This document shows, one piece after another, positions 6,639-31,455 of a stretch of DNA of 64,000 nt. The stretch lies in contig NZ_CP047945.1 in the NCBI RefSeq assembly GCF_014279795.1, positions 1,198,572-1,262,571 on the forward strand, read 5' to 3'. Both the position numbers and the translations under genes were made by a program. The notes beneath the pieces were generated by a model. It was given only the letters and a program-made list of their open reading frames with translations, was not told where the DNA came from and made no database searches. The DNA comes from Synechococcus sp. PROS-7-1. GTDB taxonomy: Bacteria; Cyanobacteriota; Cyanobacteriia; PCC-6307; Cyanobiaceae. Numbering within the stretch: the stretch's first letter is position 1; each line of letters starts with the position of its first letter.

Positions 6639-8040
6639 GTCCCGTCCATTCGAGCGTCTGTTCATCGTCACTGGACTCAAGGCTTTTCCAGCCACAGCAC
6701 TGGGAATTCTGTTGCTCATCCTCGGGTCGTTCATCGGCCTCGGGACGACGACAAGTCGCAAACTTCTCAACCGCGATTCAACCGTGCGATCACTGGCGCG
6801 GTTGGCCGATGCGTTCATCCTGATTCAGAGCTTCCAGGGTGATCCCCGCCGGCCTGTTCCATCACTGTGGAATGCACGCCTTGGAGTGAAACCGGCTGGT
6901 GATCTCTGGAAACGGCAGGGGGGAATGCTTTGGTGGCAGGCCTGGTCACTGGATGGCGAGGCTTATTTGATTCTTCCTGCGACATTGGCTCAGTCCCAAG
7001 CGCAGCGTTCCTTCGGTCAACGGCTTGGCAATCTGGTGGTGATTGGCACCGATCAGCTGCACCGCGAGCAGTTGATGCAACGCATTGAGGCGGTCAAGCC
7101 TCAATCGGACGCGTTCGATGGGCGTGGGTTGTTTCAGTCATGCCTCGACTCTCTTTCGCAGCAACCAAGCGTGTACTGGAGTGCCGATGCGTTGGCCTCC
7201 GTGAGCGGGACTCTCGCGCCCCTATTGCAGCAGGGACGTGAGGGATGCATGCAACTGCGCCTTCAGGGGAGGACTCTGCAGTGGAACGGCGTGATTGGAC
7301 AACGTCCACTGCGGACCAACCCTGTGAATGCGGAACTCGTGAGGTGGAACTGGTCCACCGTTGAAGCGGCTCCAGCCAATCAATCCAGCTTGCTGCGCGT
7401 GGATGGCTCTGCGCTGCAGTTGATTTTAGGAACCCTTTTGAGCCGACAAATCATCCAGGTTCCTCTGGAGCAGAACTACGGCATCAGCGAAGTGTTGCGA
7501 TCACGGATCAGCGCATCACCCTTTTCTCTGCGACTTGTGGCCAGGCCAACAGGGTTGTATCGCGCAGGGCTTCAACTGCAGATACCTGTTCCCAACGATC
7601 AGGCCTCGTGGATGAAGGTGCTTAGCGCCGTGAGTGACCGGCTGAAGAGTCGTGGATTCGCTTCGCTTCAACCATCCGCTGATCCCACGGTCCAGGAGCA
7701 ACAGCTCTGGTTCAAAGCGGATGATCCCAAGAAAACGATCGTCGGTGGCTGGCGTTGGCTCGGAGGCAAGGACCAACCGCTTCTGAGTATCGGATTTGGT
7801 ATCAAACCAGACGTGAAACCGTTCTTGCGAAATCTGGGTGCGTCCAAAGCTGCGTCACTGATTGTTCAGGCCAATCCATCCACACTGGCTTCCATGGATC
7901 TTCTCAATGGACGTTGGCCGAAGCCGATGACTAAGGCTTCAACCATGACCTTTCAAGTCAAGCCGTTGGATGCCAGTGGTCCGTCCACATCCAGGGGGCT
8001 ATGGAGGCTGCGGGGGGAGCTGACGCTGCCTCAATCTTGA
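6625..8040 (+). CDS. DUF3352-type membrane-anchored protein
   Basis: A protein of about 471 residues with one N-terminal hydrophobic anchor (around TALGILLLILGSFIGLG) followed by a long, presumably extracytoplasmic or lumenal region. The content (SLWNARLGVKPAGDLWKR, a lipoprotein-like repeat of beta-rich segments, late GFGIKPDVKPFL) fits my memory of the cyanobacterial DUF3352 family. Function is unknown. The start is uncertain: a TTG at 6589 and the GTG at 6625 are both in frame. I prefer 6625 because it minimises overlap with the preceding 50-residue gene. Its 3-prime end overlaps the convergent psb29 gene by 10 bases. Confidence 0.75.
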   Translation: MVAAESRPFERLFIVTGLKAFPATALGILLLILGSFIGLGTTTSRKLLNRDSTVRSLARLADAFILIQSFQGDPRRPVPSLWNARLGVKPAGDLWKRQGGMLWWQAWSLDGEAYLILPATLAQSQAQRSFGQRLGNLVVIGTDQLHREQLMQRIEAVKPQSDAFDGRGLFQSCLDSLSQQPSVYWSADALASVSGTLAPLLQQGREGCMQLRLQGRTLQWNGVIGQRPLRTNPVNAELVRWNWSTVEAAPANQSSLLRVDGSALQLILGTLLSRQIIQVPLEQNYGISEVLRSRISASPFSLRLVARPTGLYRAGLQLQIPVPNDQASWMKVLSAVSDRLKSRGFASLQPSADPTVQEQQLWFKADDPKKTIVGGWRWLGGKDQPLLSIGFGIKPDVKPFLRNLGASKAASLIVQANPSTLASMDLLNGRWPKPMTKASTMTFQVKPLDASGPSTSRGLWRLRGELTLPQS

Positions 8041-8735
8041 GTCTGTTTGCTTTCCGAGGCCTGTCGCTCGCGCTTGCGACGTTCTGAGGCAAGCGTCTCC
8101 TCCATCAGTTCGACCGCCTGGGCCATCTTCTCAAGATTGCTTCTGTACAAATTGAGATCCTTCTCCAGGCGTGGCCTGGAGAGGCCAATCTGCTCACCAA
8201 TGCTGTGGGTTGTTTTGCAGAGCTCTTCAGGATCCTGTGATTCAACGCCTTGCGCTGAGGAGAGAAGGGAGAACAGGCCAACGGCCATCAGTCTTGAGTA
8301 GTGGAACTGTTCGCCAGCAAGATCGGCGAGACCGGAGGCGAGGGGTTCAGGAGCTCCATCTCCTTTTGCCTGCAACCAGGTTTGAACCTCCTCCATGCTG
8401 TGGCCGGCCACAGCTTTTTCTGATCCCTCCGCAACGGAATTCAGCTGTTGGGCGTTGAAACCGTTGCAGCTGCAAAGGGCATCAAACAGCTCGGGGAGGT
8501 GATCGGCAGGTCGATAACCCTTGGTGAACGCAGTGAAGACCTGCCGGAGTCCGACGGCAAAAAGGGCATTCGACTTGAATTGCGTCTGGTGGCTGAGCAG
8601 ATGCAGTTCCACAAGCAACTCATCGGCAGTGCGTCGATAGAGAGATGGAATCACGTAGGGAAAGGCTGCGTGAAACGCTCTCTTGCTGTCTGCGATCGTC
8701 CGAAGCCCTGTCAAGGTTTTCTGCAGCTGATTCAA
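8031..8735 (-). CDS. psb29: Photosystem II biogenesis protein Psb29/Thf1
   Basis: The 234-residue protein contains [33 protein letters not shown] in its first 50 residues, the signature region of Psb29/Thf1, and an extended C-terminal coiled coil rich in Glu, Lys and Arg (from about residue 185). Psb29 is peripheral to thylakoids. In cyanobacteria and plants it binds FtsH protease and is required for normal FtsH levels and photosystem II repair. It is divergent from clpP with a 59-base gap and lies 1 kb from ftsH, which fits this role. Length is normal. Confidence 0.94.
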
Positions 8736-8794
8736 GGCACGACCATAGCGCTGACGATGCCGCCGTTAGGATTGAGTCAGTGTGCAAGTTCAGC

Positions 8795-9385
8795 ATGATC
8801 CCCATCGTGATCGAGGAATCCGGGCGCGGGGAAAGAGCGTTTGACATCTATTCCCGTTTGTTACGGGAGCGCATCATTTTCCTCGGTGAAGCTGTCACGA
8901 GTGAGTCCGCCAACCGCATTGTTGCTCAGCTGCTGTTTCTGGAAGCTGAGGATCCGGAAAAAGATATTTTCTTGTATATCAACTCACCTGGTGGATCTGT
9001 TTATGACGGGTTGGGTATTTTCGACACGATGCAGCACATCAAGCCTGATGTGCAGACTGTCTGTGTAGGCCTTGCCGCAAGTATGGGGGCTTTTCTACTT
9101 TGTGCGGGAGCCAAAGGGAAAAGGAGCAGCCTCCGTCACTCACGAATCATGATTCACCAGCCATTGGGAGGTGCCCGCGGGCAAGCCAGCGATATCAGGA
9201 TTCAAGCCGACGAAATCTTGTTCCTGAAAAGTCGTCTCAACCAAGAACTCGCTGAACGTACGTCCCAGCCTTTGACCAAGATTCAGGAAGATACAGATCG
9301 CGATTTTTTCATGTCACCGCAAGAAGCTGTGGAATACGGCTTGATTGACAGTGTGATTGACAAACGCCCTGTTCATTCTGTCTGA
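8795..9385 (+). CDS. clpP: ATP-dependent Clp protease proteolytic subunit
   Basis: A 196-residue serine peptidase subunit that assembles into the ClpP barrel. The catalytic serine is S96 in GLAASMGAF and the histidine H121 in IMIHQPLGG; the aspartate lies in the EDTDRD segment near residue 166-168. I chose the ATG at 8795 (MIPIVIEES), which gives the usual family start. A longer frame from 8645 would overlap psb29. Cyanobacteria have several clpP paralogues; this one has no clpX or clpR beside it, so it may be the stand-alone ClpP1 type (inference). It ends at a strong hairpin. Confidence 0.95.
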
Positions 9386-9388
9386 ATA

Positions 9389-9430
9389 AAATTCCCGCTT
9401 GAGGCCACTGTTCGGCCTGAGCGGGAATTT
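9389..9430. terminator. Bidirectional terminator hairpin between clpP and a convergent gene
   Basis: The arm AAATTCCCGCTTGAGGCC pairs with GGCCTGAGCGGGAATTT around an eight-base-or-shorter loop, with one mismatch. A-rich and T-rich flanks occur on both sides, so it can end clpP on the plus strand and the 77-residue gene plus upstream ftsH on the minus strand. Confidence 0.85.
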
Positions 9431-9444
9431 GTTAAAAACGAATA

Positions 9445-9678
9445 TTATATCGACAAATCTTTTTTGCTCGAACGTAAGTCATTCCATAATGCTTTGATCT
9501 CGGCATAAGCTTCGCTTTGTTCCACTTTGCCGTTGGCTTGAAGTCCAACAATTAAACCAACACGTTCGGCAAATTGTTCGAGATTTTGATGAAATGCCAA
9601 GCGTTCTGGAGACCAGTCATCTCCTCGATAACTGCTGAAACTCTCAAGTGGAGAATGAGTTCCATCTCCGGGTTCCAT
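9445..9678 (-). CDS. Small conserved cyanobacterial protein (DUF7219-like)
   Basis: A 77-residue soluble, acidic protein. The pattern YRGDDWSPERLAFHQNLEQF, then GLQANGKVEQSEAYAEIKALW, matches my memory of a small cyanobacterial family (DUF7219) that is often mis-annotated as isopropylmalate/isohomocitrate dehydrogenase. Nothing in the sequence supports an enzyme. It lies 43 bases downstream of the ftsH start-to-stop unit on the same strand and ends at the shared hairpin, so it may be cotranscribed with ftsH. Confidence 0.7.
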   Translation of the reverse strand: MEPGDGTHSPLESFSSYRGDDWSPERLAFHQNLEQFAERVGLIVGLQANGKVEQSEAYAEIKALWNDLRSSKKDLSI

Positions 9679-21753: not shown

Positions 21754-22773
21754 CTAACGAAACTGTGGTTTTTTGTGAACATCGAAACTTGTTTGTAGAA
21801 TTTGGCCAATCGTCAAACCGACAGGTATTTTGCCACCAAACGATGTGCCGAGAATATGACGGTAAAGCTTTGAATCGACAAGTCGGTAGGTCGCATTTTG
21901 CAAAGGAATATAATTCGCTTGAGTGACAAGCTGCTCGACGTTACGCAGATAATAAGTGATGAAATTACGAAGCGATGTGTTATTGCGTAAAGAACGATCA
22001 TTGACATAAAGAAAAAGTGGACGCGAAAGAGGTTGGTAGATCTCTTTTTGCACGGCCGCTACTGAGGGAAGAATGGCATTTCCCTTACTATTGACAATCC
22101 GAATAGCTTTGAGTTTTGATCGATTGTTGAGGAAGTAGGAGAAACCAAAATAGCCAAGGGCATTAGAATTATTTGCAACACAACTGACAATCACATTGTC
22201 ATCTTCACTAGACTTGTAATCGCTTCTAGAATTAGTCTTGGACTTATTGATAGCTTTGTTAAAGATATCAAATGTGCCTGAGTCCTTACCTGGCCCACAG
22301 AGCTTAATTTGCTTATCGGGAAAATCAAGATTGACTTGATTCCAGTTTTTGACCTTGCCCTGTGAAGCTTTGGACCATAAGCGTGAAAGCTCGGATGGCG
22401 TTAAAGAATTAAGCCAGCGATTCGATTGGTTAGCGACAACAGTGATGGCATCAAAAGCTATGGGTAGTTCAATAAAGTTGACGCCCTTCTGCTGGCAGGC
22501 GATGATTTCTTTTGAACTAATGGGTCTTGATGCATTCGTAAGAGGAATTTTATTGTTACAAAAATCCCTAAAACCTGCAGACGAACCAGTTGATCGCAGG
22601 GAGATTGAAACGTTTTTGCCTTGACCTGTTTCGTTAAATTTTTTAATTGCTAGGGATGTAATCGGATAAACAGTACTAGAACCGGCGATTGAGAGTCCTG
22701 CCGCTGAAGCTGATGGAATAAAGGTTGAAGCAAGTGCAAAAGAAGCGAGGAAAAAAGAACGTCTTAATTCCAT
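21754..22773 (-). CDS. sphX: PstS/SphX-family phosphate-binding protein
   Basis: A 339-residue exported protein. It has a signal peptide (MELRRSFFLASFALASTF, cleavage after SASA near residue 24), then LSIAGSSTVYPIT and LRSTGSSAGFRDFC, which contribute the phosphate-binding loops of the PBP-like fold, and GPGKDSGTFDIFN later. It resembles the SphX branch of cyanobacterial PstS proteins, so the symbol is tentative. The pst permease and ATPase genes are 15 kb away. It is very lysine- and asparagine-rich, in line with its AT-rich DNA. Confidence 0.8.
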   Translation of the reverse strand: MELRRSFFLASFALASTFIPSASAAGLSIAGSSTVYPITSLAIKKFNETGQGKNVSISLRSTGSSAGFRDFCNNKIPLTNASRPISSKEIIACQQKGVNFIELPIAFDAITVVANQSNRWLNSLTPSELSRLWSKASQGKVKNWNQVNLDFPDKQIKLCGPGKDSGTFDIFNKAINKSKTNSRSDYKSSEDDNVIVSCVANNSNALGYFGFSYFLNNRSKLKAIRIVNSKGNAILPSVAAVQKEIYQPLSRPLFLYVNDRSLRNNTSLRNFITYYLRNVEQLVTQANYIPLQNATYRLVDSKLYRHILGTSFGGKIPVGLTIGQILQTSFDVHKKPQFR

Positions 22774-22833: not shown

Positions 22834-23988
22834 TTAGGGACCGAATTTTCGACTGCGACCCGAAAGATCTTGAAACCATCCTCGCTTCCATAAAAAATAA
22901 GCTTGAAAGAGCGCGATTAAGGTCATTAATATTAATGAATACAAGTATCCGTATTTCCATTTCAATTCGGGCATGTTCTCAAAGTTCATGCCATAAATGC
23001 CCGCAATGAAGGTCAATGGCGCAAAAATAGTACTCACAATAGTAAGTGTTTTGATAATCTGATTCATGACATTGCCAGTACTCGCCATGTAAGCATCGTT
23101 AATGCTATTAAGCTGAAGACGAATACTATCTCCTATTTCCAGCAAAGTATTGACGTGGTCGGCCATATCATGAAGACCTTCTCTGGCTACCGGCCCAAGC
23201 AAACGTTGACTTTGCCTGAGAAGAATAATCAACTCATTGCGTAATGGCCACAGCTGTCGACGAGCAACACGATGATTAAACCTGACTTGATATGCTCGAT
23301 TAAGAATTGAAGGTTTTGGTTTCAATAAGGCTCGTTCCTCCAAATCGTCTAGAAATACGCTCATTGATTCAAGCATAGGCAAATGACTATCAAGAATATC
23401 GTCAACAACAAAATGAAAGAGATTATCTAAATCGATTGCCTTTACGTTATTCGTCTTATTATTGAGCCACGCTTCGAGGTCATTAAAGGTGCGCTGTGGG
23501 TTCTCTTGAATTGTGATCAGCATGCGATTGGTTAGAACTAAATTGTATTGAGTACTGATTAGATGTGTTGGATCAGTAGCTAGAGAGAATTCATGAAGCA
23601 CCGCTAAGACTGAATTATTTGTTGAGGTGATTCTTGATTTTTGTGGAAAGGTAAGAATGATATCAATTACACTGGGCTCTAGAGACAGTAACGATAAGTA
23701 CTGACGCAGCAAGTCAATATTGGCAAGACCACGAAATTGAAGCCACATCAGTGCTTGAGAGGGTATCAGTGACTCAAACTCTTCATAGTTATGAACCTGA
23801 AAAGTAGACACTACCTCATCATTAAACTGTAGAACTTTGCAAGAAAAGGGTGCCTTACCTCCATGCAAAAATAAATGAGCGGGCAGATCTCCTGGGCGTT
23901 CTAGTAAAGGTAAAGGTTCGGGAATGCTATCAGGGGCTAATCGATCACCAGGTTTAAACAGGGATTGATCTGATCTTGAATCAGTCAT
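22834..23988 (-). CDS. corA: CorA-family magnesium/cobalt channel
   Basis: A 384-residue protein with a large cytosolic N-terminal domain and two C-terminal membrane helices. The selectivity motif GMN is present in AGIYGMNFENMPEL near residue 335. The segment RREL/PLRNELIILLRQSQ fits the long stalk helix. CorA forms pentameric Mg2+ channels. Here it sits 64 bases downstream of an RCK-domain membrane protein and upstream of sphX, within a run of transport genes on one strand. Confidence 0.9.
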   Translation of the reverse strand: MTDSRSDQSLFKPGDRLAPDSIPEPLPLLERPGDLPAHLFLHGGKAPFSCKVLQFNDEVVSTFQVHNYEEFESLIPSQALMWLQFRGLANIDLLRQYLSLLSLEPSVIDIILTFPQKSRITSTNNSVLAVLHEFSLATDPTHLISTQYNLVLTNRMLITIQENPQRTFNDLEAWLNNKTNNVKAIDLDNLFHFVVDDILDSHLPMLESMSVFLDDLEERALLKPKPSILNRAYQVRFNHRVARRQLWPLRNELIILLRQSQRLLGPVAREGLHDMADHVNTLLEIGDSIRLQLNSINDAYMASTGNVMNQIIKTLTIVSTIFAPLTFIAGIYGMNFENMPELKWKYGYLYSLILMTLIALFQAYFLWKRGWFQDLSGRSRKFGP

Positions 23989-24052: not shown

Positions 24053-25939
24053 TTAAGGATGTTGAGCGTGTTCCATAGGCGTCACTTCCGCTCGAATGGC
24101 ATATTTTCTGAGGGATTCCTTTAATTGCATGGCGATTGCATAATCAATGCTATCAATGGTGTGTGATTGACCATCTAGCAAAGAGAGGAACTCACCTGGT
24201 GCTTTATTGAGTAAACGTGCAAAACATTGTTGTATTTCATAGGCATGAAAAAGCTGATTGTGGATCGAAAAGGTAATGGACCAGCGTGGAGACACAATCG
24301 TTTTGCTATCAATTCTTTGAACTCCAGCAAGATCAGCAACAATGAACAACTCATCTCCAGGTTCAATGATCGTGAAGCGTGCAGGGAAAATTTTCAAGCC
24401 CGATTGACTTGAGGTGCGACGTCCAATCACGGTGATTCCGTAACCCTCCTCAAGTCGGGATACCGACAATCCATGAAGAGTATCAGATTGTTCAATAGAG
24501 TATTTAACAACTAGTAAGTTGCGGCCCTGAAATCGAATCACCTGTTCGACGGTCTCGCCAAATGCTGTAGCAATAATTGCATCAGCTGCAATATCTGTTG
24601 TTGATATCAATGAGATACCACCTAGTAGACTACTCATCGATTGAGATGAAGACAAATGCTTGGTAACAATGGATAAATTTAGCTGGGGATTAATTGTTTG
24701 CAGTTCTAATGCTATGCGTAGATTGCTGATTAGATCTTTACAGAGCAGTGCAGCTCCAATGAGTTTGCCTTTTCTGACAAGCTTGATGGCTCTCGCCATT
24801 GTCAAACCAGTTTCTGCCTGTGTATCAACATGAAGAACACCGATGCCCTGTGATTGCAACAACCTAGCAACAAGCTGATTGAGCTCCATCCCATCAACAA
24901 GGAGGACAGAGTCAACACCGCGTCTGGGACGATCACGTCGACGTAATCCCAAGCGACGACTCAATATTTGATCGAGTATTAGTGCCACAAAAAGCGACGT
25001 TAATATAGTGCCAATAATGGCATAAATAAGTGTAATAAGTAAAACAAATAATGGAAATTGCATTACGGACTGATCGCTTTCTTCGATGAGTACATTGACG
25101 GGATCGACAAACTCACCTTTTAAAAGCGCAACAGTTACAAAAACCCCGGTTTGTAAGTTTACCTTATCAAAGCTAAAAGTAAGCGTGCCAATTAAAAGCA
25201 AGGAGAGCAATATTATTACAAGATAGTCATAGAGTTGCAGGTTCTTGAGTCGATTGAAGAGACTATCCTTGAACTCGTTCAATTTCTTGCGTATTCGACT
25301 GATAATTGCTTTGAACTCCTTCTTCTTGCGTGAGCGCTTAAATCGATAAGATGTTAATGATGATTCAGAAAGGATGATGCGCTTTTGATTAGAGTAGAGA
25401 TTTGGTTGCAGGCACAATTCGCGTTGATGACGTGAAGAGTAGTCGAATAGGTCTGAATTTGTTGATATGAATCGATAACTTTGCCCTTCCATTTGGAAAT
25501 AAAGATCATTCTCTCCGCTCGCAAGAGATTGTGCTGTTGCTCCTGCTGTCAGCAAATGAGGATCGATGATGACTAAATTAGGAATTTTGCTTTCAATTAA
25601 ATGGTTGATATCACCTTGTTGCTTTGTCGAGCGAACAACAATCGCTGCCTCAGGATTTAGAACCCGCGCTTGTAGTGCTGCTTCAAGATTATTTGTAGGA
25701 TTAGAACTCAAAAATAAAATGCTTCTAGCGTTAGCGATTTCTGCCTGAACAAGTATCGATGGTTCTCTCATGTCGCCGAGCACCAAGGAAGAGCCGAATA
25801 TATCTTTCAGCGATTGTGATAGCCATTTTGGCTCATTCTCATTGATACATTTAATCTTGGCTTCCGTCTCTAATAAGCGCTCAATACAGGTCTGAGCCAG
25901 TGTGCCAATGCCACAGATCAGCACCAGCGAGTTGTTCAT
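24053..25939 (-). CDS. Two-RCK (TrkA-N-like) membrane protein, putative ion channel
   Basis: A 628-residue protein with an unusual order. Residues 1-140 look like a Rossmann-type RCK domain (LICGIGTLAQTC start). A basic linker (200-230) follows. Then come a membrane helix (about 237-257), a short loop with QTGVFVTVALLKGEF (263-277), a second helix (about 293-325), and another RCK half starting VDSVLLVDGMELNQLVARLL (342-) and a TrkA-C-like end (about 470-540, with YGITVIGRRTSSQ and EPGDELFIVAD). The canonical TxGYG potassium filter is absent. It starts 24 bases after ggtA, so it may share that transcript. Conductance and ion are unknown. Confidence 0.75.
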   Translation of the reverse strand: MNNSLVLICGIGTLAQTCIERLLETEAKIKCINENEPKWLSQSLKDIFGSSLVLGDMREPSILVQAEIANARSILFLSSNPTNNLEAALQARVLNPEAAIVVRSTKQQGDINHLIESKIPNLVIIDPHLLTAGATAQSLASGENDLYFQMEGQSYRFISTNSDLFDYSSRHQRELCLQPNLYSNQKRIILSESSLTSYRFKRSRKKKEFKAIISRIRKKLNEFKDSLFNRLKNLQLYDYLVIILLSLLLIGTLTFSFDKVNLQTGVFVTVALLKGEFVDPVNVLIEESDQSVMQFPLFVLLITLIYAIIGTILTSLFVALILDQILSRRLGLRRRDRPRRGVDSVLLVDGMELNQLVARLLQSQGIGVLHVDTQAETGLTMARAIKLVRKGKLIGAALLCKDLISNLRIALELQTINPQLNLSIVTKHLSSSQSMSSLLGGISLISTTDIAADAIIATAFGETVEQVIRFQGRNLLVVKYSIEQSDTLHGLSVSRLEEGYGITVIGRRTSSQSGLKIFPARFTIIEPGDELFIVADLAGVQRIDSKTIVSPRWSITFSIHNQLFHAYEIQQCFARLLNKAPGEFLSLLDGQSHTIDSIDYAIAMQLKESLRKYAIRAEVTPMEHAQHP

Positions 25940-25963: not shown

Positions 25964-26935
25964 TTAGCTTGTGCGTAAGCCTGTGGCGACATCAAAATAA
26001 AAAACTTTCGATTGATCCCATTGCACGAAGACACGTTCAGGACAAATGAATGATGGATCTACGACCATTCTTAACTCTCCTTCTGCTGATTCAAGATAGA
26101 GAAGCTGAGTGTTACCGAGCCATTCGCGCGCAATCAGACGACAAGGTAGGCCTGAATCGCTAATTTTGAGATGCTCTGGACGAATGGCCAGAATCTGATT
26201 CTTGCGTGGCTTTAAACAATTGATCTGAGGACGACCCAAAAACTGAGCGACAAAAAGTGAACACGGATTTTGGTATAAATTAATCGGCGTATCCAGCTGT
26301 TGAATGAGCCCTTGATTGAGGATCGCAATCTTATTCGCCATAGCCAGCGCCTCACTTTGATCGTGCGTGACATAGACGGTTGGTTTTTCCTGATTTAAAA
26401 TGAGCCTCCGCAGCTCAGGTCTGATCTGCTCTCTTAATTGAGCATCTAAATTACTCATTGGCTCATCAAGTAAATAGACCTTTGCGTCTCTAAGTAATGC
26501 ACGAGCTAAAGCCACCCTTTGCCTTTGGCCACCAGATAAGGCTGCAGGTTGATGGTTGGCACGATCGGCTAACTGCACAACATCAAGAATATGCTGTATC
26601 CTTCTACTTCTTTGTTCCAAGCGCACACCGCGAATACGCAGACCTAGTTCAAGGTTTTCGTAGATTGTTAAATGCGGAAGAAGGGCATAACTCTGAAACA
26701 CCATACCCACTGCTCGTTCAGATGGCTTGGATAAAGTGACATCACGATTTTCAATCTTAATTCTGCCATGTTGACACTCATCTAAACCTGCTATTAATCG
26801 AAGAGTCGAGCTCTTTCCACAACCACTTGGCCCCACAAGAACAAGGCATTCGTCCTGTTCTACTGAGAAGGTTAAATCACGAACAATCCAGTTCGTATTG
26901 ATTTGTCGTCCTACGGAATTAAGTTCGAGTGTCAT
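25964..26935 (-). CDS. ggtA: Glucosylglycerol ABC transporter ATP-binding protein
   Basis: A 323-residue ATPase of the MalK/UgpC group. It has Walker [10 protein letters not shown] near residue 37, signature LSGGQRQRVALARALL, Walker B VYLLDEPMSNLDAQLRE and a C-terminal TOBE-like regulatory region with AIRPEHLKIS. It powers uptake through the adjacent permeases. Position in the ggpS-ggt operon supports the glucosylglycerol substrate. Its start overlaps the ggtD stop by 4 bases. Confidence 0.85.
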   Translation of the reverse strand: MTLELNSVGRQINTNWIVRDLTFSVEQDECLVLVGPSGCGKSSTLRLIAGLDECQHGRIKIENRDVTLSKPSERAVGMVFQSYALLPHLTIYENLELGLRIRGVRLEQRSRRIQHILDVVQLADRANHQPAALSGGQRQRVALARALLRDAKVYLLDEPMSNLDAQLREQIRPELRRLILNQEKPTVYVTHDQSEALAMANKIAILNQGLIQQLDTPINLYQNPCSLFVAQFLGRPQINCLKPRKNQILAIRPEHLKISDSGLPCRLIAREWLGNTQLLYLESAEGELRMVVDPSFICPERVFVQWDQSKVFYFDVATGLRTS

Positions 26936-27747
26936 CCTTTAACGGCTCCACTGGTGAGACCAGAAACAATTGGCTTTTGAAAAACTATCACTAGGACTAT
27001 GAGTGGAATAGCACCCAAAACAGTAGCAGCAGCATATGCACCATACGGTACTGAATGAACGGATGAACCGGCAATACGTGCCATTGCTACAGGCAACGTT
27101 AGTTTCGATTGATCACTGATCCATGTTAAAGCAATTGGGTATTCATTCCATGAGAACAGGAATATTAAGATTGCAGTGCTGGCTATTGCTGGGGCCAATA
27201 ACGGTATGTAGATCCAGCGAAATCGATTCCATAACGATAGTCCCTCAACCCGAGCTGCGTCATCCAATTCAGATGGGATTGATGAAAACGCACTTCCTAA
27301 CAATAAAATAGCAAGTGGTTGAGACAAGGCTGTATAAGGCAGAGCCAATGCAAATAGATTGTTTCCGAGTGATAGAGACCTGGCAATTTCGAGCAAGGCT
27401 AAGAATAATAGAACATATGGAAATAATGCACAACCAACAAGGATAATTCGAATTATATTTGACTTTGCAGTCGATAATTTACTTAACGAATATGCCGCAG
27501 GAAGGGCTATCAATAACGTGAAAAGTGTTGAGAGTGCTCCAACAAAAAAACTATTCAATAAGTATAGAAAAAAGGGGGGATTTGATGAGATGACACTTCG
27601 GTAGTGCTCCAGCGTCCATCGATCTGCTAGTTGAGCCAATGGTGTGACCAAAGCTTGATCAGTTGAAAACGAAGTGTATAGCTGCCAAAGCAGTGGTGCC
27701 GATGACCATAAAACAAGAATGAGAATCGGTAATGTCCTTGATTTCAT
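26932..27747 (-). CDS. ggtD: Glucosylglycerol ABC transporter permease GgtD
   Basis: A 271-residue MalG-type permease with about six membrane helices. The EAA loop IPSELDDAARVEGLSLWNRFRWIYIPLL contacts the ATPase. I use the ATG at 27747 (MKSRTLPILILVLW), which overlaps the ggtC stop by 4 bases. A frame extending to 27798 would add 17 residues inside ggtC. Function is assigned by synteny with ggpS. Confidence 0.85.
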   Translation of the reverse strand: MKSRTLPILILVLWSSAPLLWQLYTSFSTDQALVTPLAQLADRWTLEHYRSVISSNPPFFLYLLNSFFVGALSTLFTLLIALPAAYSLSKLSTAKSNIIRIILVGCALFPYVLLFLALLEIARSLSLGNNLFALALPYTALSQPLAILLLGSAFSSIPSELDDAARVEGLSLWNRFRWIYIPLLAPAIASTAILIFLFSWNEYPIALTWISDQSKLTLPVAMARIAGSSVHSVPYGAYAAATVLGAIPLIVLVIVFQKPIVSGLTSGAVKG

Positions 27748-28619
27748 TCTGTCACCGTCATTGCGCGTTGTTGGTTCAATAAAAGGATTAACCACCAACT
27801 GAATCCAACGATTGTACTTAATAGGATAAAGCTAGCGATCATGATTGTTGCGCTATAGCCAAAATCTAGAAATCGAAGAGCATTCCAGTAGGCATACAAA
27901 GCAATACTCTCAGTGCTACTTGCAGGACCTCCGCCAGTCATCACTTGAACGAGGTCAAAAACTCCAAATGCCTGAGCAAGCCTAAACATCGCCGCTAACC
28001 CTAAGTAGGGTTTCAAAAGTGGCAATGTGATTCTGCGGAAACAAGTCCAAGACGATCCGCCTTCAAGAGTACAGGCTTCATAAAGATCACCAGGAATACT
28101 TTGTAACCCAGCGAGCACAATCAGGGCTACAAATGGCGTTGTCTTCCAGACGTCCGCATAAACTAATCCAATCCAAGCGATGGATGGATTACCAAGAATG
28201 TTTAGAGACACGCCTGTCAACGTGGATGTGATTTGATCAAATGGTCCATAGGGCGTATTGAAGATCCAACGCCAGCCGAGGGCCATCACAGTTGTGGGTA
28301 AGGCCCAAGGAATTAATGATATAGAGCGAATCACACCTCTCTTCCTCATTGGTTGGTTGAGTAGCAAAGCTACGACGACTCCTAGTACAAGCTCTATTCC
28401 GACTGATGCAATCGCAAACCGCATGGTTTGAATCAAATCCTGCCAATATCGTTGATCGTTCATTAAACGAATCCAATTTGCCCCGCCGTTGGCTATCGGT
28501 TGTAAGCCTGTTAGAACGGAATCAGCATGAAAACTCAACCATGCATAGCGCATCAATGGCAAACCAAACACACTGATGAGCATCAGCATCGAAGGGATCA
28601 ACAAATAGAAGACAATCAT
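27744..28619 (-). CDS. ggtC: Glucosylglycerol ABC transporter permease GgtC
   Basis: A 291-residue MalF-type permease with the EAA loop IPGDLYEACTLEGGSSWTCFRRITLPLLKP and the motif VQVMTGGGPASSTES. About six membrane helices are predicted. It starts 4 bases inside ggtB and ends 4 bases into ggtD, so the set is translationally coupled. Confidence 0.87.
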   Translation of the reverse strand: MIVFYLLIPSMLMLISVFGLPLMRYAWLSFHADSVLTGLQPIANGGANWIRLMNDQRYWQDLIQTMRFAIASVGIELVLGVVVALLLNQPMRKRGVIRSISLIPWALPTTVMALGWRWIFNTPYGPFDQITSTLTGVSLNILGNPSIAWIGLVYADVWKTTPFVALIVLAGLQSIPGDLYEACTLEGGSSWTCFRRITLPLLKPYLGLAAMFRLAQAFGVFDLVQVMTGGGPASSTESIALYAYWNALRFLDFGYSATIMIASFILLSTIVGFSWWLILLLNQQRAMTVTE

Positions 28620-29899
28620 TGACTACCTCCACCTGCTGCACTCATGATTTGTTCAGAAGCAATCTGGGCATTGATCATGCTTGTCTCCGCATTAATCTCG
28701 TCTGTCAATGATGCACTCAAACTACGTTGTAGTACGTCACTCAACTGCGCATAAATCGGAGTTTCAGGGCGCATTTTTGCAACCGTTAATGCTTCATAGA
28801 GCTTGGCTATGTATGGGTATTCTTTCAAGAGTTCTTCGTTTTGATAAACGGATTTTCGGGTGGGTGTGTAACCGTACTCAGTAAAAAGCTTTGTCTGCGC
28901 TTCATTCGATGTTAGATACTTAAATGCTTTAATTGCTGCCTCTTTATGTTTTGATCCCTTGAGAAGGCTCAATCCCCAACTGCCCATTGTCGAAGCAGGT
29001 GAAACACCTGGTATCGACACCATCGTGGAAATTCCCACATGTCCACGCACTTGACTGTCCTCTTTTTGCAATTCTGCCCATGCATAGGGCCAATTGCGCA
29101 TCAATGCACTGTCACCTGATTTGAAACTTTGTAGTGCTTCGGACTCTGCATAATTAGTGACAGCTCTAGGGCTAATTCCGTTGTTGATTAAATTTGTAAG
29201 CCATTGAGCTGCATTGATACCGGGTTGTTGATCCAGGCCAAATTCTTCTCCATTGGGATTAAACCACTGCCCTCCAAATCCATCGATCATTTCCAAATAG
29301 ACGCAACTTAAGCCTTCGTATTGTCGACCCTGCCATACATATCCCCATGTAGCTTTGTTTTTGCGCTGAAGTTCTTGACTAATGGCAACCAATTCTGAAG
29401 GTGTTGATGGTGGTTTGTCCATTAAATCAGTTCGCCAAAATAGCAGTCCCATGTCTGCCACCAATGGCCATCGGTACAGGCTTCCATCATAGATATTTCC
29501 TAATTGAGCACCATTTGTTAAATCTTGAATTTCAGATTGATCAAAGCCTTTATCCAATGCTTCAAGCCACCCAGCTCGAGCATATTTTGGTAACCATGTA
29601 ATATCCATTAGAATGGCGTCAAAAGGTGTATCCCCCAATAACAAACTGCTAATTGCTAAGTCGGATATTGCCTCAGTTTCGAGCGGACCACGTATAACAT
29701 CGAGATGGATTGAGTTTGCATATTTTGCATTGAACTCCTCCACCAGCTTGACCGTTGAGTCCGCGAATGGTGCAGGCATTAATATTGATATGGACTCAAT
29801 GTCACGTGCAATGATGCTGGGTATAAAGATTAAGAGTGTGCATATTGCGAGAGCGACTGATATGCACAATGATAACTTTTTGCGCCAACTTATTAGCAT
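28616..29899 (-). CDS. ggtB: Glucosylglycerol ABC transporter substrate-binding protein
   Basis: A 427-residue extracytoplasmic binding protein of the sugar-binding (SBP family 1) class, with an N-terminal signal anchor (LCISVALAICTLLIF). Visible family features are DAILMDITWLPKYARAGWLEALD, MRNWPYAWAEL and MGSWGLSLLKGSKHKEAAIKAFKYL. The GgtBCDA system recovers leaked glucosylglycerol and can take up sucrose and trehalose in other cyanobacteria. It begins 2 bases after the ggpS stop, so synthesis and retrieval genes are linked. Confidence 0.85.
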   Translation of the reverse strand: MLISWRKKLSLCISVALAICTLLIFIPSIIARDIESISILMPAPFADSTVKLVEEFNAKYANSIHLDVIRGPLETEAISDLAISSLLLGDTPFDAILMDITWLPKYARAGWLEALDKGFDQSEIQDLTNGAQLGNIYDGSLYRWPLVADMGLLFWRTDLMDKPPSTPSELVAISQELQRKNKATWGYVWQGRQYEGLSCVYLEMIDGFGGQWFNPNGEEFGLDQQPGINAAQWLTNLINNGISPRAVTNYAESEALQSFKSGDSALMRNWPYAWAELQKEDSQVRGHVGISTMVSIPGVSPASTMGSWGLSLLKGSKHKEAAIKAFKYLTSNEAQTKLFTEYGYTPTRKSVYQNEELLKEYPYIAKLYEALTVAKMRPETPIYAQLSDVLQRSLSASLTDEINAETSMINAQIASEQIMSAAGGGSQ

Positions 29900-29901
29900 G
29901 T

Positions 29902-31392
29902 TTAAATCATGGTTTCTAGGGATTGCAATTGTTCATTGGCCCAATCTTCAACTGTAAATTCTTCCACAGCTGAGGCCATTTTGCTGATTCTTTCTATTTG
30001 CTCATCTTGAGGTAATGCTAATGCTGATTCGATGGCTTGATCCATCTGTTTGTGCGAGTAAGGGTTCGTAAGGATAGCGCCATCAAGCACGACGGATGCA
30101 CCGGTGAATTCGGACAACACAAGTACTCCATCTCTTCCTTTTCGTGCCGCTACATATTCTTTAGCGACTAGATTCAGCCCATCTCTTAAGGGTGTAATCC
30201 AGCAAATATCTGACATTGAGAACCATGCAACCATTTCCTCGTAGGGGATTCGGTTGGTTGAAAAGCGAATCGGAACCCAATCGATGGAACTGAATCGTCC
30301 GTTGATTCGTCCAGCCGTTTCCTCAATGAGTCGCTGTGTCTCCTCATAGATTTTCATTCCCGATGCTGCGGCTACACAAGCCAACATCAAAACAACTTTC
30401 CCGTGCAGATCTAGACGCTTCTCTAGCAAGCGTTCGAATGCTAAGAGAAGCTCTTCGTTTCCTTTTGTATAGTCCACACGACTTGCAGACAAAATCAGTT
30501 TTCGCCCCTTTTTCGTGTCTGCATCGATCTGTCTTTTTAATTCAGAAACATCGTCCCTTGTTGACAAGGAATGAATAACATCCGGTGATGTCCCTACAGG
30601 TGAAGAAACTAGTTTTACTTTTCGACTCTTGTATTCAAGCCATGGTGTCTCTGACGGTTCAGTTAATGCTGAGCCAAATTTGAGAAACTTTGGTGCGACA
30701 TCTGTTTTTGGACCTTTTTTGACTCCGAGTAGACAACTCGCAGCTCGTGCGAAATTCTCTGTGTACCTGGGTATGTGAAATCCTACGACATCACACGCAA
30801 GTAGGCTTTCAATAATTTGTTTTCTCCAAGGCAGAATTGCAAAGACATCATTTCCTGGGAATGGTGTGTGATGGAAGAATGCAATCTTTAAGTCAGGACG
30901 TTTCTCTCGAATAAAACCTGATACAAGCCATAAATTGTAATCGTGTATCCACACTGTGGCCCCTTTGGCTGCTTCAGAGCAGGCTGCATCAGCAAACCTT
31001 CGGTTGACTTCTTCAAAAATTGCCCAATTAGCATTGTTAACATCAAAATAAGTAGGAAACGTATGAAGTATTGGCCAAACCGATTCTTTTGATGTTACGT
31101 GGTAAAAGCTAGATACTTGACTTTGTTCGAGGGGAATGCGTCTGAGAATAAAAGTTGAAGGATTGCTCATTGCAATCCTTTCGTCTTCCTCGCCGCTTGC
31201 ATCATCTACTTGACGCCATGCTATCCACGTACCATTTTCTTGGCTGCGAAATAAGTTTCTTAACGTGGGGATTATCCCGTTTGGGCTTTTTTGATCCCTC
31301 CAGGTTCGATTGCCCTGTTCATCGACAGATTCATCAAACGGAGTGCGATGATACAAGATAATGAAGTTACTGTTACCTCCGCTTATCGTCAT
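29902..31392 (-). CDS. ggpS: Glucosylglycerol-phosphate synthase
   Basis: GgpS transfers glucose from ADP-glucose to glycerol 3-phosphate, the first step in making the compatible solute glucosylglycerol. The 496-residue protein is a GT20 (trehalose-phosphate-synthase-like) enzyme: N-terminal IILYHRTPFDE with a conserved loop, VWIHDYNLWLV, LSASRVDYTKGNEELLLAFERLL and RDGLNLVAKEYVAAR. I take the ATG at 31392 (MTISGGNSN); a GTG at 31401 is also in frame. It heads the ggt operon. The phosphatase GgpP is not in the window. Confidence 0.92.
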   Translation of the reverse strand: MTISGGNSNFIILYHRTPFDESVDEQGNRTWRDQKSPNGIIPTLRNLFRSQENGTWIAWRQVDDASGEEDERIAMSNPSTFILRRIPLEQSQVSSFYHVTSKESVWPILHTFPTYFDVNNANWAIFEEVNRRFADAACSEAAKGATVWIHDYNLWLVSGFIREKRPDLKIAFFHHTPFPGNDVFAILPWRKQIIESLLACDVVGFHIPRYTENFARAASCLLGVKKGPKTDVAPKFLKFGSALTEPSETPWLEYKSRKVKLVSSPVGTSPDVIHSLSTRDDVSELKRQIDADTKKGRKLILSASRVDYTKGNEELLLAFERLLEKRLDLHGKVVLMLACVAAASGMKIYEETQRLIEETAGRINGRFSSIDWVPIRFSTNRIPYEEMVAWFSMSDICWITPLRDGLNLVAKEYVAARKGRDGVLVLSEFTGASVVLDGAILTNPYSHKQMDQAIESALALPQDEQIERISKMASAVEEFTVEDWANEQLQSLETMI

Positions 31393-31455
31393 GCCCTGCA
31401 CCTATTCGAGTTATCCCTTTCTACCATTGAACAAAATCTCTGAATTGTCAAATCG

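Follow-up and report, generated by a model that had tools for sequence, protein, structure and literature searches.

What kind of protein is encoded by a cyanobacterial gene whose product appears to place an RCK domain on either side of a two-helix pore, and whose pore loop lacks a recognisable potassium filter? The gene lies in a 64,000-nucleotide stretch of Synechococcus sp. PROS-7-1 DNA (the window, to which all positions refer), and an earlier note, made from the letters alone, had proposed this arrangement and suggested a part in ion flux during salt acclimation. We conclude that the architecture is real, conserved and uncommon, a variant of the RCK-gated channels with an altered filter. 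Our preferred reading, to which we give a probability of roughly 0.6, is that the product forms an RCK-gated tetrameric cation channel that is probably not K+-selective.

The open reading frame was confirmed by translation (ATG start, 628 residues, minus strand, 25939..24053), and the plus strand of 24053-25939 is rich in stops in the frame read. Hydropathy resolves two hydrophobic stretches, at about residues 233-260 and 290-327; there are 15 K/R before the first helix, eight after the second, and two K/R against six D/E in the loop, a charge pattern that by the positive-inside rule would put both protein ends in the cytoplasm. AlphaFold prediction of the whole 628-residue protein from a two-sequence alignment gave a pLDDT of 38.6 and is unusable as fold evidence, and the reading of the pore is therefore unsupported by structure; a helix at 260-273 is present in this low-confidence model. 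Residues 547-628 modelled alone (AF2) reached a pLDDT of 69.8. A Foldseek search with this C-terminal domain returned nothing at E<=0.001, the best match being a PBP2X chain (E 0.02), with many ClpS chains from E 0.03 onward (TM about 0.57). We know of no ClpS-like last domain in other RCK channels, and this alpha/beta domain may pack on a putative gating ring. The features of the gene and its neighbours are collected below.

Table 1. Positions of the channel gene, the parts of its product and the adjoining genes within the window.
Feature	Positions	Strand	Basis
Channel gene: RCK, two-helix pore, RCK, small C-terminal domain	24053..25939	-	ORF, translation, alignment of 38 family members, purifying selection
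N-terminal RCK / TrkA_N Rossmann domain, residues 1-145, GxGxx[GA] nucleotide motif	25505..25939	-	TrkA_N, 7.1e-14
Basic linker before TM1, residues 196-235, 15 K/R and 3 D/E	25235..25354	-	Charge count
Predicted TM1, about residues 236-257	25169..25234	-	19-residue hydropathy windows >1.6 spanning 233-260
Predicted pore helix, about residues 262-273, within QTGVFVTVALL	25121..25156	-	Alignment with K+ channel pore helix via wide clade
Motif at the filter position, K274-G-E-F-V-D279, aligned on T-V-G-Y-G-D of K+ channels	25103..25120	-	Alignment
Predicted TM2, about residues 297-326, with G310	24962..25051	-	Hydropathy and alignment
Predicted C-terminal RCK, residues 343-545: degenerate Rossmann lobe and TrkA_C lobe	24305..24913	-	hhalign against family N-terminal RCK; TrkA_C
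Extra C-terminal alpha/beta domain, residues 547-623, weakly ClpS-like	24071..24301	-	AF2 and Foldseek
CorA-family gene, YGMN motif, 64 bases downstream of the channel gene	22834..23988	-	PF01544, 3.2e-48
Solitary phosphate-binding-protein-like gene (PBP_like_2, PstS-like), third gene of the present/absent block	21754..22773	-	
ABC transporter genes immediately upstream (presumably ggtA, ggtD, ggtC, ggtB)	25964..29899	-	Class and order
Glycosyltransferase family 20 gene (presumably ggpS), head of the cluster	29902..31401	-	Position and class

An RCK-pore-RCK order is common to all 38 aligned members of the family (chosen from 61 rows, with near-copies and fragments left out), 22 of them picocyanobacterial and 16 from outside the picocyanobacteria (the wide clade), and in this respect the earlier description holds well beyond the single protein from which it was made. 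A tree of 44 of the 61 rows (17 named rows left out), built by a quick method with the filter columns removed and with uneven composition flagged in 25 rows, separates the 25 picocyanobacterial rows from the rest by a branch with full support. TrkA_N matches residues 6-107 of the window protein at 52.6 bits against a Pfam cut-off of 23.8, and at E<=1 it is found in every one of the 38 members. TrkA_C scores 22.5 bits in the window protein, short of its cut-off of 27, and at E<=1 matches 36 of the 38 (best 1.2e-9). The predicted second RCK, subtle in the window protein alone, is secured by the family profiles: in the wide clade the C-terminal region matches the N-terminal one with an hhalign probability of 99.5 and a score of 144 (30 column shuffles gave 18.1 or less), the picocyanobacterial C region matches the wide N region with a score of 41.8 (30 shuffles, 20.1 or less), and the picocyanobacterial C and N regions match each other with a probability of 94.3 and a score of 52.5, a pair run without a shuffle control.

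The nucleotide motif GxGxx[GA] is present in the N-terminal RCK of all 22 picocyanobacterial and all 16 wide members, and in the C-terminal RCK of four of the 22 and 13 of the 16. The acid that closes the second strand of the N-terminal RCK is D or E in 36 of 38 members; the window protein and its counterpart in Synechococcus WH7803 instead have N33, and this replacement of the usual acid of the nucleotide site counts against our reading of a nucleotide-sensing channel.

Among solved structures the best match to the family profile is GsuK of Geobacter sulfurreducens (PDB 4gx0/4gx5; E 4.3e-13), which likewise has two RCKs per subunit around a K+-type pore, and the N-terminal RCK profile finds its best solved relatives in GsuK, the Kch RCK, TrkA and MthK (the last at E 9e-6 to 9e-5). 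As given in the available part of its description, GsuK is a K+ channel with the chain order pore-RCK1-RCK2, and its RCK2 has the nucleotide motif and binds ADP/NAD+ (PMC3510474), whereas the window family has an RCK before the pore, a non-canonical filter and an extra C-terminal domain; a tandem RCK1-RCK2 after the pore, as in channels of the GsuK or BK type, is seen in none of the 38 aligned members. The second RCK of GsuK matches the family N-terminal RCK (i-E 2.6e-8), and its transmembrane segment and first RCK weakly match the family pore and C-terminal RCK (i-E 1.8). Because of this domain order and these profile matches, the family looks like a GsuK-like machine with one RCK shifted to the N-terminus. 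The RCK-to-RCK correspondence is not firm, because the window sequence alone aligns with the first GsuK RCK and not the second (E 0.37), while the profile match falls on RCK2. MthK is similar in having an RCK-gated two-helix pore with an RCK after the inner helix, although its pore-bearing chain holds a single RCK and not one on both sides; further RCKs are made from an internal start, according to the same partly available source (PMC3510474). In the open-access literature, as far as its texts were accessible, we found no account of a channel with the RCK-pore-RCK order.

The loop QTGVFVTVALLKGEF (residues 263-277) is without TxGYG, as first described, and the departure is general: the window protein reads KGEFVD, and the potassium signature is lost in all 22 picocyanobacterial members, whose filter columns fit [KLQN]-G-[ED]-[YFL]-[VILA]-D. 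For comparison, the filter of MthK is TVGYG. What could not be seen from the window is that a degenerate GY-D filter survives in the wider relatives at this position, with [LI]-G-[GD]-Y-x-[DNE] in all 16 aligned (LGGYAD in six, LGGYGD in five, IGGYDN in two, and LGDYGE, LGGYDN and LGGYSD in one each). G275 and G310 are invariant in all 38 members, all 22 picocyanobacterial members keep D279, and a lysine stands at 274, beside the acid, in 19 of those 22. The column of the first filter glycine holds glycine in 15 of 16 wide members and an acid (276) in 22 of 22 picocyanobacterial ones, a placement that depends on an ungapped alignment, such that a slip of one residue would move the acid elsewhere in the filter, to the place of the tyrosine. 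Cyclic-nucleotide-gated channels have a glutamate at that tyrosine place. One wide-clade member, with the filter LGDYGE, has an acid at the same position, and on the tree this is a separate, second change.

The pore is nevertheless homologous to those of K+ channels, transitively and via the wide clade only. The wide pore profile matches 19 canonical K+ pore rows with a probability of 92% and a score of 40.7 (100 column shuffles gave 19.2 or less), with LGGYAD aligned on TIGYGE in the TxGYG register and G310 on an inner-helix glycine of K+ channels; the K+ set was drawn by a TxGYG-type pattern over 33 loci, and four of its 19 rows are two pores counted twice through overlapping loci (L064 and L066). 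Pfam Ion_trans_2 matches eight of the 16 wide pores (best 2.1e-4), and each of the 19 other families matches one; on one of the wide pores (L034) the Ion_trans_2 match of 14.1 bits is under the curated cut-off of 22.5. On these two lines of evidence, the pore descends from K+ channels. The picocyanobacterial profile by itself gives no match to K+ pores (score 16.7, within the shuffle range of 19.2 or less), and the link therefore runs through the wide clade, whose pore profile matches the picocyanobacterial one at 97.5% and E 8.3e-12, ungapped across the filter. Against the PDB, neither pore-only profile found a channel above noise: the wide profile matched only Cas13a chains (E 1.7-1.8), and the picocyanobacterial profile came no nearer than K2P fragments with E values of 5.5 and above. 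The full family profile touches K2P pores at E 0.02-0.03, too weak to rely on.

This descent, together with a GGY mostly kept in the wide relatives and a D279 present throughout the picocyanobacterial members, is what might be expected of an ordinary K+ channel whose degenerate filter selects K+ through its backbone carbonyls. We consider that reading quite unlikely, since G-Y-G occurs in none of the 22 picocyanobacterial members, which instead have an acid at the first glycine and V, I, L or A at the second, and since the same genome already has five other pores over the Ion_trans_2 cut-off, all of the form T-[IV]-G-[YF]-G. With an acid fixed in place of the first filter glycine, classic K+ selectivity would be unlikely. 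(The window's genome has a tandem pair of adjacent K+ channel-like genes, with the filters TTVGFGD and TTVGYGD, at G000:C1:1660578-1661541, L064 and L066.)

The reading that we prefer is of an RCK-gated cation channel with altered selectivity. The gene product would be one subunit of a tetramer with a gating ring, in which the pore is lined by the two membrane helices together with a re-entrant loop, the N-terminal RCK with its kept nucleotide motif senses an adenine nucleotide, and the C-terminal RCK, joined to the inner helix, pulls on that helix. Because the picocyanobacterial clade has a fixed acid in place of that filter's first glycine, which makes four per pore, the channel there probably passes cations other than K+ (Na+ or divalents), or a mixture, and not K+ alone. 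K274 could neutralise the neighbouring acid, and we count this against altered selectivity.

There is a precedent of a kind in the plant nuclear channels CASTOR, POLLUX and DMI1, which have an RCK gating ring, no TVGYG and an acidic filter residue (AD265S/AGNHA); as reported in the portion of the source at hand, CASTOR selects Ca2+ and requires its filter aspartate to pass current (PMC6697748). By analogy with CASTOR, Na+ or divalents are possible as the carried ions. These plant proteins differ in having four predicted transmembrane segments with both RCKs after the pore, again as set out in the accessible part of that paper (PMC6697748), as opposed to the two hydrophobic stretches and flanking RCKs of the window protein. 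Membership in the CASTOR/POLLUX family, for which a profile search had been proposed, is rejected: Castor_Poll_mid is found in two of the 38 members (best E 0.02) and is absent from the matches of the window protein. A more specific form of the channel reading would make the protein a prokaryotic counterpart of CASTOR, nucleotide-gated, derived from a K+ channel, with a ring of four glutamates in its filter, selective for Mg2+ or Ca2+, and working alongside CorA in picocyanobacteria. We regard this as doubtful, but if true it would be an independent conversion of a K+ filter to divalents with intermediate GGYGD relatives still living.

The family is widespread among cyanobacteria. Whole-genome searches found 34 carriers among the 151 genomes sampled from the taxonomic family (E<=1e-10), 48 among the 292 sampled from the phylum (E<=1e-15, a sample that overlaps the first) and five among the 31 genomes of the genus (E<=1e-5), and these counts include one genome (G112) in which the channel copy is broken. 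A scan of genome contigs, which picks up close relatives only, gave the protein of WH7803, with 77% identity. No relative was found among 40 pattern matches on viral contigs, among plasmid records (queried with one wide-clade member, E<=1e-10) or among phage records (queried with the window protein, E<=1e-3).

The association with glucosylglycerol genes is confined to part of this range. The channel gene does follow by 24 bases the ABC-ATPase gene that we take to be ggtA, just as the earlier note had stated, and the order ggpS-ggtB-ggtC-ggtD-ggtA-channel-corA-pstS-like is shared by the window and all four other carriers of the genus; a genome of another genus (G054) has the same order with a short corA match, and the broken copy in a third genus (G112) is also in the ggt-linked position, with ggt genes and no corA match there. 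This latter copy (L118, G112 C1:1156500-1173500, at 7262-9071) consists of channel matches in three pieces in different frames, reflecting either decay or sequencing error. A pattern scan found 21 promoter-like sites (22.4 in shuffles) and 12 terminator-like ones (8.9 in shuffles), neither count giving anything to rely on; none of the terminator-like matches falls in the gap to ggtA or in the gap to corA. The position after ggtA and these uninterrupted gaps suit a device for salt acclimation that acts with glucosylglycerol synthesis and uptake. However, ggpS is present in nine of 34 carriers compared to 53 of 117 non-carriers in the 151-genome sample, being if anything rarer among carriers (Fisher p 0.07); in the five same-genus non-carrier loci read (L125-L129) the ggt operon is kept and the channel-corA-pstS-like block is absent between ggtA and a polysaccharide pyruvyl-transferase gene; and in the contexts read from other genera the channel gene is away from ggt, and in several is near corA. 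The linkage to the glucosylglycerol operon is thus real in the window's lineage and is not a family trait. As the association with ggpS is not positive, the salt reading applies, if at all, to that lineage, and as an account of the protein we consider it decidedly unlikely.

Losses are also recorded close by. In the closest locus (L145, G423 C1:1114000-1133900, about 87% DNA identity) the channel gene has been deleted from between ggtA and corA, leaving two short remnants at about 9318-9580 of the locus that correspond to amino acids 587-627 and, weakly, 35-78; G431 has no channel gene and an interrupted corA. With five carriers among 31 genomes of the genus, a deletion in one close relative and a broken copy in another genus, the channel gene is dispensable, and we weigh this against the preferred reading.

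CorA is the stronger partner. A corA match is present somewhere in the genome of 30 of 34 carriers and 23 of 117 non-carriers (Fisher 3e-13), in 16 of 17 carrier genera and one of 42 others when genomes are grouped by genus code (the overlap counted by hand and then tested), and, in the window's own genus, in five of five carriers and two of 26 non-carriers. Among 20 carrier contexts, four from the same genus included, corA is matched in nine (in one of them truncated where the stretch ends), gives a short match in one and is unmatched within the stretch in ten. Because these tests are uncorrected for shared ancestry and genome size, we regard the link with CorA as suggestive. Apart from the channel gene itself, no ORF family of at least 110 residues recurs in more than three of 12 wide-clade loci.

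These associations raise the possibility that the protein does not conduct at all, and instead serves, anchored in the membrane, as a nucleotide sensor or as a regulatory partner of, for example, the adjoining CorA or ABC transporter. Such a role would fit the co-occurrence and linkage with CorA, the linkage to ggtA in the window's lineage, and a picocyanobacterial filter that is unrecognisable by itself, but we think it unlikely given the strength with which the filter loop is conserved, G275, D279 and the acid at 276 being present in 22 of 22 members. Moreover, when the window protein is compared with that of WH7803, no segment is better conserved than the pore, with 87% identity as against 81% in the C-terminal RCK, 76% in the N-terminal RCK, 74% in the C-terminal domain and 59% in the linker, which is not how a dead pore should behave. 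The gene is under purifying selection, with dN/dS values of 0.08-0.28 in ten hand-picked pairs of near relatives, although the pair formed by the window and WH7803 is close to saturated at synonymous sites. The low dN/dS and the conservation of the pore both argue that the change of filter is not simple decay.

Few natural series are available in which a K+ filter has drifted elsewhere. Here one family combines a constant RCK-pore-RCK scaffold with pores of the GGYGD, GGYAD and KGEYVD kinds, and a change of selectivity could be tested with existing genes. The family also provides a candidate for ion flux in cyanobacteria that are abundant in oceans and lakes, with a tie to CorA that can be tested. 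For WH7803, we found no work in the open-access literature that brings together salt, a potassium channel and the transcriptome. Two published entries may bear on the family. Synechocystis PCC 6803 has five K+ channel homologues, the fifth of which, Sll0536, is without functional information in the part of the account available (PMC13099474), and it may belong to the wide clade. The Cyanorak cluster CK_00002470, annotated as a 'putative potassium transporter', is present in 43 of 67 freshwater, seven of 17 brackish and eight of 48 marine strains (PMC9361551, accessible in part), a distribution that could be that of the channel family.
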